Source: Limosilactobacillus reuteri
GTDB taxonomy: Bacteria; Bacillota; Bacilli; Lactobacillales; Lactobacillaceae
DNA length: 64,000 bases
Assembly: GCF_003072625.1 (NCBI RefSeq)
Contig: NZ_CP027805.1
Span: 1,945,501-2,009,500, forward strand
Direction: 5' to 3'
Shown: piece by piece, positions 45,605 to 51,295 of the stretch
Layout: each line of letters begins with the position of its first letter
Position numbering within the stretch: the first letter of the stretch is position 1
Translations under genes and position numbers: made by a program
Notes under the pieces: generated by a model
The model's input: only the letters and a program-made list of their open reading frames with translations
Databases searched by the model: none
What the model was told of the DNA's origin: nothing

Positions 45605-47174
45605 GTTAGTGTAAGATTTTCATAGGTTGGATGAATAATTCATCTGGTCGTGGAAATCTTTTTTGTAGACCAATTTACTTATTTACAAAAAAAGAAAAGA
45701 CCAGTAGCCTTTAGTGTGTCGAATACTAAGCAAAGGCAGGTCTTTCCTCATGGATATTTTAACAGAAATCTAGCAGAATTTGGTGAAATCAGGCAGTTTA
45801 TTTGAAGCTGAACAGATTATTTTAAAAGGTGTATTGGAGTTAGGACAAGTAATCATGCAAAACTTTTTGGAAAGCTTAGATCGAAGCTTAAAGTCCCAAG
45901 CTCCAGCGAACTATCAAGTAATCAATAAACAGCCACGGACGCTTAATTTTATCTTTGGCCCGGTGACTTTTCAACGACGGTATTATCAGGCTGGGACAAA
46001 GAAACGTGAATTTTACTTAGACCAACAATTAAAAATTAAACCACGTCGTCGTTTATCGCCACACTACTTAATGATGATGGCTAAGATTGCCCAAACAACT
46101 ACAATGCGCAATACTGCCGACATTTTGAACCTTGTATTTGACAGCGGAATTACTGCCGATTCGGTAATGCACGCCGTGCATGAGTTAGGAAATCAGGTAG
46201 CTAAACAAACTCAAGCAAAAGAACACCAAGCTACTCCTCGCCATATGCCTAAAAATTTAACTATTGAGGGTGATGCCTTTATGATTAAAGGTAAAAAAGA
46301 AGCAGGTCAGCTGACTCTTGTGCACCATTATCGGGTTTATGAGCGAGTAGCTAATCAAATCATTAATCGGCATGACTTTCTCAGTGTTGGGCACCAAGGA
46401 CGGCTTGAAGCACGACTAAGTGATTATTTAGACCGCCATTATAAGCTTGCCGGTCAAACGATCTTTTTGGCCAGTGACGCTGGCCCAGGTTACGAACCAG
46501 CTAAGCTATTAAGTCTAGTTCCTCAAGGTGCACATGGTGAATACTTTCTCGACCGCTATCATTGTTTACAGAAAATTGAACATACTTTAGGCCGGCACAA
46601 CGAATTAGCCATGCGAGCAATTAAAGCCGTTCGTCATCATGATCAAGCAGAGCTAACAATAATTTTAGATACTTATGAATCACAAAACCTAACGGAAAAA
46701 CAAGCAGACGACCTAATGCGTTTAAGAAAGTATCTACAGCGAAATTGGCGGTATATCCTCTCACCACAAATGCGTGGATTTAAGGATATTCATTTAATTG
46801 GTTCAGTCGAAAGTTCTCACCGGGCTTTTACTTACCGGATGAAGAAACAGGGCAAGTCATGGACTAAGCAGGGGGCTAAAGCCATGATTGGTTTAATTGA
46901 AGCCCGAATGAATGGTGAACTGCAAGCTAGTTTAAATACAATCCTAGAACAATTAACAGTTCTTCCTCGAGTGGCTCAAACCAGCCTATTACAGGAAATG
47001 CATATTCGAACTGGAGAGTTTCTAAGAAAGGCACCGACAAAGCCGTCAATTGGAGCAGTACAAGGAATAATTCCGATTAACACGGTCACAAGTAGACCAA
47101 TGGGACAACTTTTTAAGGCACTAACCCACTAAAACTGTATATTTAAAGGCTACCTATGAAAACTTGACAGATAC
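45605..47174 (+). mobile_element. ISLre2-type insertion sequence, complete ends
   Basis: 1570 bp. The ends share TTTTCATAGG 12 bases in from each terminus, and the perfect 8-bp target duplication AAATTAGG (45597-45604, 47175-47182) fixes both borders. It lies between the NmrA-like gene terminator and pepN. Its right end carries an outward-facing TTGACA. Confidence 0.93.
45750..47132 (+). pseudogene. ISLre2-type transposase with nonsense at codon 8
   Basis: From ATG 45750 the frame reads MDILTEI, then TAG (45771-45773), then QNLVKSGSLFEAE and 450 further open codons. A CAG-to-TAG change is the simplest explanation. Restart at TTG 45780 or GTG 45783 could still give a nearly full-length protein. 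The core is the UPF0236-type transposase with Asp/Glu-rich segments (IEGDAFMIKG, FLASDAGPGYEP, IGSVESSHR). Confidence 0.85.
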
Positions 47175-49852: not shown

Positions 49853-49978
49853 GTTGGGGTAGGAATCTCAGAGTTATTGTCTAACGGAACGGAATGTGAA
49901 CGTTAGAAGGAGGCTAATAACTAGCTGCTTTATTATTCCGCATTCACCATGAACGGAAACGTCAATGTGTTCCCTAAC
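49853..49978 (+). promoter_or_regulatory. Structured, pseudoknot-like leader of the folT-GNAT gene
   Basis: Closing stem GTTGGGG (49853-49859) with CCCTAAC (49972-49978); inner stems AGTTATT/AATAACT (49872-49878, 49916-49922) and CTAACG/CGTTAG (49881-49886, 49901-49906). The loop GAATGTG can pair with CGCATTC (about 49939-49945), a possible pseudoknot. An internal AAGGAGG (49907-49913) is sequestered. A folate (THF) riboswitch is the natural guess for folT, but I could not match its conserved core. Confidence 0.5.
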
Positions 49979-50005
49979 AAAATTTTTAAAAGGGAGTGGA
50001 TTGAT

Positions 50006-50959
50006 ATGTCTACGTTATCATTTACTGGACCGCGCTTTATTACAAAGAATTTAACTTTAGCTGCTATGTTGGTCGTACTGCAGGTAATCTTAAATAAACT
50101 TTCAATTGGAGATCCAGCGGTTTTAAAGTTTAGTTTTGGTTTTATTGCCACTGCACTTATTGGCTATTGTCTTGGCCCCTGGATCGGCGGATGGTCAATG
50201 GTCGTATCTGATATCATAAGTAATACTATTTTAAATTCAGGAAGCTTATTCTTTCCTGGCTTTACCCTCTCAGCATTTATTTCTGGTGTAATTGCAGGAA
50301 TGTTCCTATATCAACAACGGATAAGCTGGCAACAAATTTTAATCTATGAGTTTTTTCAACTTCTTCTTACTAATGTTATCGGAACAACTTTATGGCTTTA
50401 CCTTATGAGCTTAAGTTGCAGTAGTAGCAGTCATACTTTCATGGCGCTCCTCTTCATCCGTTTGCCAAAAGAGTTGATCACATGGCCGATTGATGCTTGT
50501 ATTAGTTATACTGCGGCAATTATCACGATTAAATTTAATTTCAAAATAATCATGATTAGAAAAATGAAATCAACTGATATCAATAGAGTGATGGATATTT
50601 GGTTAACTACTAACCTAGAGGCTCATCCTTTCATTAATCCAAATTATTGGTATCAAAATTCGTCAAATGTTCAAAATGCAATTCAACAAGCAGATGTTTA
50701 CTGTTCAGTATCTGCCAATGAGCATATTCAAGGCTTTATTGGGCTTCAAGATAATTATATTGCTGGTTTATTTATCGCAAAAGAGTACCAATCACAACAT
50801 CTTGGTACTAATTTACTGAATGTTGCTAAAGAAAAACATCAACAACTCGTTTTAGATGTATATTTAGAAAACCAGCGTGCTATTAAGTTTTACCACCAAA
50901 ACGGTTTTCAGATTACTAAACATAATAGTTTAGAAGCCGAGATGACATGGTTAAAATAA
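50006..50959 (+). CDS. ECF transporter folate-type S component fused to a GNAT acetyltransferase
   Basis: 317 residues from ATG 50006 (GGGAGTGG upstream). Residues 1-182 are a six-helix ECF S component of FolT type: GDPAVLKFSFGFIATALIGYCLGPWIGG, then FPGFTLSAFISGVIAGMFLY and RLPKELITWPID. Residues 183-317 begin MIRKMKSTDINRVMDIWLTTNLEAHPFI and form a complete GNAT domain with IAKEYQSQHLGTNLL and FYHQNGFQITKH. S components are normally about 170-180 residues, and YjaB-like GNATs stand alone. A frameshift or stop loss joining two adjacent genes is the simplest cause; an ATG remains at the join (50552). Confidence 0.82.
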   Translation: MSTLSFTGPRFITKNLTLAAMLVVLQVILNKLSIGDPAVLKFSFGFIATALIGYCLGPWIGGWSMVVSDIISNTILNSGSLFFPGFTLSAFISGVIAGMFLYQQRISWQQILIYEFFQLLLTNVIGTTLWLYLMSLSCSSSSHTFMALLFIRLPKELITWPIDACISYTAAIITIKFNFKIIMIRKMKSTDINRVMDIWLTTNLEAHPFINPNYWYQNSSNVQNAIQQADVYCSVSANEHIQGFIGLQDNYIAGLFIAKEYQSQHLGTNLLNVAKEKHQQLVLDVYLENQRAIKFYHQNGFQITKHNSLEAEMTWLK

Positions 50960-51019
50960 ATTCATTTAAAAAGTATTGCATTTTAAATGAATTAGGTTAA
51001 AATACAATTAACAAAATAA

Positions 51020-51295
51020 AAAAGCGATGAGAAAGAAGAGTAACTAGTTGTATTCGTTCAGTGAACTGATGATAGTGAGAAATCGGTCGACCCTATGCTA
51101 GTGAATAACACTTTCGCGAGTGCTGCCAACCCAAATAAGTTTACTTAAAGTAGGCTTGGCCGGATCCGGACCGTTACCTCACCGGCAGAGCATGTTGTGC
51201 TCTTGAAGAGGCCTAGTTTTATACTAGACAATTTGGGTGGTACCGCGGAAAAAAGCCTTTCGTCCCTTGATTATAAGGGGAACGAAGGGCTTTTT
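51020..51295 (+). promoter_or_regulatory. T-box leader of asnA-asnS (Asn specifier)
   Basis: A stem I region, a probable specifier AAC in GTGAATAACACTT, the canonical T-box GGGTGGTACCGCGG, and the terminator stem AAGCCTTTCGTCCC / GGGAACGAAGGGCTT with six T. Confidence 0.93.

Follow-up and report, generated by a model that had tools for sequence, protein, structure and literature searches.

A fused folT and GNAT acetyltransferase frame in one Limosilactobacillus reuteri genome, and its probable origin by a 5-bp deletion

The fused frame and its surroundings

The window analysed here, i.e., the whole stretch of 64,000 nucleotides, comes from a Limosilactobacillus reuteri genome that is a single contig of 2,044,184 bases and estimated to be 99.99% complete. 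Within it, a single open frame on the forward strand runs from an ATG at 50006 to a TAA at 50957-50959 and translates into 317 aa. Profile searches matched PF12822 to residues 14-168 (84.9 bits against a cut-off of 30.7, E 8.3e-24) and the FolT subfamily model TIGR04518 to residues 12-169 (96.7 bits against a cut-off of 60), which identifies the first part as FolT at the level of the family profile; PF00583 (GNAT) matched residues 196-301 (40.5 bits against a cut-off of 20.7, E 3.8e-10), which does the same for the second part. Two recognisable families within one frame is beyond chance.

An earlier note, made from the sequence alone, had described one in-frame union of FolT and GNAT at 50006-50959, and this was borne out, with 317 aa and both profiles matched. 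It had also divided the protein into FolT (residues 1-182) and GNAT (183-317) with an ATG kept at the join. The two domain names and the ATG stand (the methionine is residue 183, at 50552), but the extent given to FolT does not: FolT homology in frame ends at codon 163, where a deletion shifts the frame, so that residues 164-182 are translated from the former folT 3' end out of frame and are not FolT.

The program-made reading frame opens further upstream, at 49949. Since the ATG there sits at the end of a THF riboswitch and the ATG at 50006 is preceded by a Shine-Dalgarno-like sequence, AAAAGGGAGTGG, that is kept in all four aligned relatives, we placed the folT start at 50006. The features of the locus are as follows.

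49853 to 49951, forward strand: aptamer of the THF riboswitch (RF01831) that precedes folT (44.6 bits by cmscan, with a gathering score of 36)
49988 to 49999, forward strand: Shine-Dalgarno-like AAAAGGGAGTGG serving the folT start at 50006 (read from the sequence; 4/4 aligned relatives)
50006 to 50493, forward strand: the part of folT before the deletion (162 whole codons plus the first two bases of codon 163), with A7T, T12I, A24V, R110Q and S138C on the window branch
50493/50494, forward strand: junction at which five bases present in L. balticus are missing (alignment)
50494 to 50551, forward strand: former folT 3' end in a shifted frame (residues 164-182), displacing the conserved end of helix 6, with the folT stop removed
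50552 to 50959, forward strand: GNAT acetyltransferase with TAA at 50957-50959, a separate gene with its ATG here in relatives (block-mean pLDDT 81-94)
51018 to 51270: T-box leader behind the fused gene (same scan as RF01831)

The THF riboswitch was also found in all four relative loci searched, at 46.0-48.0 bits, so that the window copy scores 1.4-3.4 bits lower; its base 49932 is A in the window and G in 4/4 aligned relatives. Further upstream, a 450-aa ORF at 45780-47132 lies just ahead of an aminopeptidase-like gene, and presumably encodes an ISL3- or UPF0236-like transposase. PADLOC returned no match, leaving a defence role for the fused gene without support, and that candidate was rejected.

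Orthologous loci and distribution of the fused form

Alignment with orthologous loci, which the earlier note had proposed as a check, revealed two separate frames in relatives that carry both genes and five additional bases in the folT of the nearest relative compared, Limosilactobacillus balticus (96.9% identity over 6.4 kb; its two entries, G021 and L050, are the same contig). These five bases lie at codon 163. The L. balticus folT has 182 codons and a TAA stop, and the GNAT ATG follows 2 nt downstream. The same spacing of +2 nt is found in G382 and L. viscerum, while an 8-nt overlap of folT and GNAT is seen in L. reuteri WF-AA1-C, L. agrestis, G012, G431, and G432, and the genes are separated by 868 nt in L. 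oris. L. panis and G429 retain only a GNAT remnant, and for many relatives the stretch retrieved contains folT but no GNAT gene. Where folT was read and intact, FolT has its own stop after 177-186 aa, and the FolT end of near relatives resembles WPIETLLVLVILRQLSRLNL; the window sequence ahead of the GNAT methionine is WPIDACISYTAAIITIKFNFKII.

On this alignment, a single 5-bp deletion is sufficient to explain the fusion, as it removes the folT C-terminus and stop and leads into the GNAT frame. A fresh fusion of two neighbours, the second of two possibilities raised in the earlier note, thus agrees with the loci: relatives with both genes close together keep two frames, and the one deletion accounts for the difference. 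Over the 6.4 kb compared with L. balticus there are three gaps, of which the 5-bp gap is the only coding one and the other two are intergenic. Neither a repeat nor a homopolymer surrounds the deletion site. The roughly 50 bases upstream of the ATG at 50552, and the ATG itself, are identical to L. balticus.

Among the genomes searched, the fused form appears to be confined to its own genome. One frame across both parts was found in 1 of 50 genus genomes, namely the window's own (seven of the 50 had no match to the query), and a conserved architecture across lineages was rejected on this and the following searches. No second case was present among the matches listed for 396 family genomes, in a set of 38 genomes (own included), or in the nine loci read out of 12 contig loci, the other three of which match the GNAT part only. 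Among plasmids, none of 97 matching records covered 80% of the query at a single location; the deletion allele was absent from the viral contigs scanned, which says little. When the 99 bases of the junction were used as query, 1 of 18 genomes matched, again the window's own, in a sample that did not include the near relatives with both genes. Literature searches on ECF transporters, FolT, Lactobacillus reuteri folT, and the THF riboswitch retrieved no such fusion among the matches listed.

State of folT and of its GNAT partner

For residue counts in FolT we used 41 distinct relatives, after removing the window itself (L001), a locus with a broken folT (L017), two loci with GNAT only (L018 and L019), and six duplicates. 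Two substitutions in the window strike positions that hardly vary: A24V, at a position that is Ala in 41/41, and R110Q, at a position that is Arg in 40/41, with further loci agreeing at both (10/10). Helix 1 of FolT carries the AxxxA motif for docking to EcfT, and position 24 is its second alanine, so the window has A20xxxV24 and no longer a complete docking motif. Mutating either AxxxA alanine of ThiT is reported to have abolished transport as well as contact with the ECF module (PMC11109136), and two alanines of the FolT motif are located in the EcfT interface (PMC4820897). The C-terminal side is affected too, in that in-frame homology stops at codon 163 and the window FolT has neither a full sixth helix nor its own C-terminus. 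With the end of helix 6 replaced, A24V in the docking motif, and R110 changed to Q, the protein has probably lost folate transport or transports folate poorly. Against this, the first AxxxA alanine is itself variable in relatives (position 20 is Ala in 32/41, Gly in 5, and Ser in 4), and valine is a mild change. Also against it, the positions aligned with the folate-binding residues of Enterococcus faecalis FolT (PMC4525288) precede the deletion and, judged by eye on the alignment, are mostly the same or similar.

To polarise changes in folT codons 1-163, we took three outgroups (L. reuteri WF-AA1-C, L. agrestis, G414); one change, in codon 163 where the deletion lies, was left unpolarised. 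The window branch has 5 N and 4 S changes and the L. balticus branch 1 N and 5 S, a weak contrast (Fisher, two-sided p 0.29); one-sided values of 0.016 (reuteri-agrestis) and 0.017 (reuteri-G414) come from longer paths picked post hoc. Of the five N changes, A7T is the least certain, being polarised by two of the three outgroups only, with Thr also in L. agrestis, G012, and G011. The GNAT part has 1 N and 1 S on the window branch, plus 2 S that are unassigned to a branch. Selection on folT looks relaxed, judging from A24V and R110Q, while the N/S statistics are weak.

In the structure model of the fusion, the GNAT part is predicted confidently and has the GNAT fold, with YjaB (2kcw) as best fold match (E 3.1e-8); it is probably still folded in the fused protein. 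Its best NCBIfam match is NF007853, which, with PRK10562, we take to be YiaC. Since the score of 104.7 bits lies below the equivalog cut-off of 125 bits, the domain is not assigned to YiaC, and its substrate cannot be read from the family. YjaB and YiaC are described as protein lysine acetyltransferases in E. coli (PMC6199490).

The FolT part of the same model remains recognisable, with 7nnt, 9kym, and 4z7f among its fold matches, at block-mean pLDDT values of 27-56; the L. balticus FolT model has a mean of 58.6. Helix 6 spans 142-176 in the L. balticus model but is reduced to 161-167 in that of the fusion. Confidence is low in both models, which were built from shallow and unequal alignments, the FolT rows for the fusion being cut at codon 163. 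The absence of helix 6 from the fusion model thus lends weak support to its loss.

A paralogue of the GNAT domain, 43% identical, forms the C-terminal half of a 324-aa protein elsewhere in the same genome (L043:1520-2494, reverse strand; about 1,491,000-1,492,000 on contig C1 of G000), the N-terminal half of which is a RibD_C (dihydrofolate reductase-like) domain. GNAT matches also lie in open frames of 326 aa (G432, G439), 331 aa (G373), and 344 aa (G415). If these 326-344-aa frames share the RibD_C–GNAT make-up, that would be a stable fusion and a hint of pterin- or flavin-like substrates for this GNAT subfamily.

Profile searches found DHPS/FolP (PF00809) and HPPK/FolK (PF01288) in the genome of the window (G000), together with two CbiQ/EcfT-family matches. 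As this cell appears to make its own folate, loss of folT would be tolerable. We compared 12 hand-picked genus genomes, judging the pathway from DHPS and HPPK only. All four genomes without the two enzymes (G016, G011, G020, G382) have an intact folT. Among the eight that have both, G000 included, folT is intact in four (G021, G414, G012, G014), gives no match in G008 and G009, and is present as two short frames of 88 and 41 aa in G018. The G018 record (L046:39-6947, L065:64-2580) consists of coding sequences placed end to end on one strand with no intergenic DNA and is not a natural chromosome; its folT frames suggest a broken gene, on weaker grounds than a true locus would give since the record is joined coding sequences. 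In this small set, the pattern fits a folT that folate auxotrophs require and that folate makers can do without. The GNAT gene also looks dispensable, since in L. agrestis (L052:4551-4955) folT is kept and the GNAT gene behind it has an in-frame stop at codon 41.

Origin of the fusion and comparison with known systems

We consider it very probable that the frame is a recent fusion of two coupled neighbours, folT and a GNAT gene, brought about by the 5-bp deletion as a by-product of folT decay. The ancestral arrangement would have been a two-gene operon behind the THF riboswitch, with folT followed by the small GNAT gene. The deletion at codon 163 cost folT its own last ~19 codons and its stop and opened the way into the GNAT frame. 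With no ribosome-binding site evident ahead of it, the GNAT gene was presumably translated by coupling to folT, so that the main product would now be the 317-aa protein, with GNAT on its cytoplasmic C-terminus. Impaired or lost folate transport would be tolerated by a folate-making cell, and GNAT may persist as a membrane-tethered or released domain. Several observations count against decay, in addition to the weak N/S contrast with its less certain A7T and to the features of the docking motif and folate site given above: all 317 codons are open, so the decay, if it is decay, is young, and the four other folate makers named above have an intact folT.

Compatible with this origin, free GNAT might also be made from the internal ATG at 50552, beside the fusion. 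The conservation of that ATG and the ~50 bases before it speaks for this, but by eye no Shine-Dalgarno-like sequence precedes 50552 and the folT stop needed for re-initiation is no longer in frame, and we regard a free product as rather unlikely.

We give a low probability to a working new protein in which FolT serves as a folate-binding membrane anchor and selection joins it to an acetyltransferase at the membrane. The FolT C-terminus is cytoplasmic according to PMC4820897 and PMC4525288, so the fused enzyme would face the cytoplasm; the whole frame is open, the GNAT branch counts are even apart from the two undecided S changes, the GNAT domain is predicted with high confidence, and both the THF riboswitch and the ribosome-binding site are kept. 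Set against these are the presence of the fused form in one genome only (1/50 in the genus; 1/396 in the family among the matches listed), the out-of-frame sequence at the end of helix 6, and folT changes at invariant or nearly invariant residues. The vitamin carrier with a working acetyltransferase that the earlier note had offered as its first possibility fares poorly for the same reasons: one genome, a replaced helix 6 end, and a changed docking alanine.

We hold it to be just as improbable that the genome really has two genes and that the fusion is an error of sequencing or assembly. The fusion does come from a single genome, and PMC3711429 regards frame transitions confined to one genome as likely to reflect indels or errors in sequencing. 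Nevertheless, an error is unlikely because five bases are gone outside any homopolymer or repeat, with no other coding indel in 6.4 kb, and because the genome is a single, nearly complete contig; the substitutions at otherwise invariant folT residues also suggest a real relaxation. Still less probable, and drawn by analogy, is a newborn receptor-like enzyme, in which a folate carrier with an altered motif for docking to its ATPase motor acquired a cytoplasmic acetyltransferase by one indel, two features that also distinguish 5TMR receptors from the S components of transporters; since most folate-site residues are kept, acetylation at the membrane could be under the control of folate. Programmed frameshifting and phase variation were rejected, since the fusion needs no shift and no repeat or homopolymer lies at the site.

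If the preferred origin by deletion and folT decay holds, the locus is a clean example of two coupled genes joined by a 5-bp loss, with signs of relaxed selection on the first gene, and a warning that what reads as a two-domain "fusion protein" may, even in a finished genome, be only one indel old. Should the fused product be made and be stable, it would show in nature how a vitamin carrier tolerates a C-terminal enzyme, although nothing here requires that.

Compared with known FolT ECF S components (TIGR04518; PDB 4z7f, 9kym, 4huq, 5d3m, 5d0y), the window protein is alike in its profile, in most of its folate-site residues, and in its THF riboswitch, but differs in having Val in place of the second AxxxA alanine and in ending, from late helix 6 onward, in out-of-frame sequence plus GNAT instead of the FolT C-terminus. 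Its GNAT part is likewise similar to the YiaC/YjaB-type GNATs (NF007853, PF00583; PDB 2kcw) in best NCBIfam and fold match; unlike them, it falls below the NF007853 cut-off and makes up only the C-terminal portion of its frame. With the singleton frame transitions surveyed in PMC3711429, the fusion shares a frame change in one genome from a recent indel, whereas that survey concerns genes split over two frames and here two genes are joined in one. The 5TMR receptors (PMC11109136) have the S-component fold, C-terminal cytoplasmic domains, and no AxxxA motif. The fusion resembles them in its membrane S-component fold, changed AxxxA motif, and C-terminal cytoplasmic domain, and by analogy one could picture a nascent membrane acetyltransferase repeating the route from S component to 5TMR, an idea with little behind it. 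In contrast to the fusion, which is one genome and one indel, the 5TMR proteins form large families of receptors whose domains include kinase, GGDEF, and the like.
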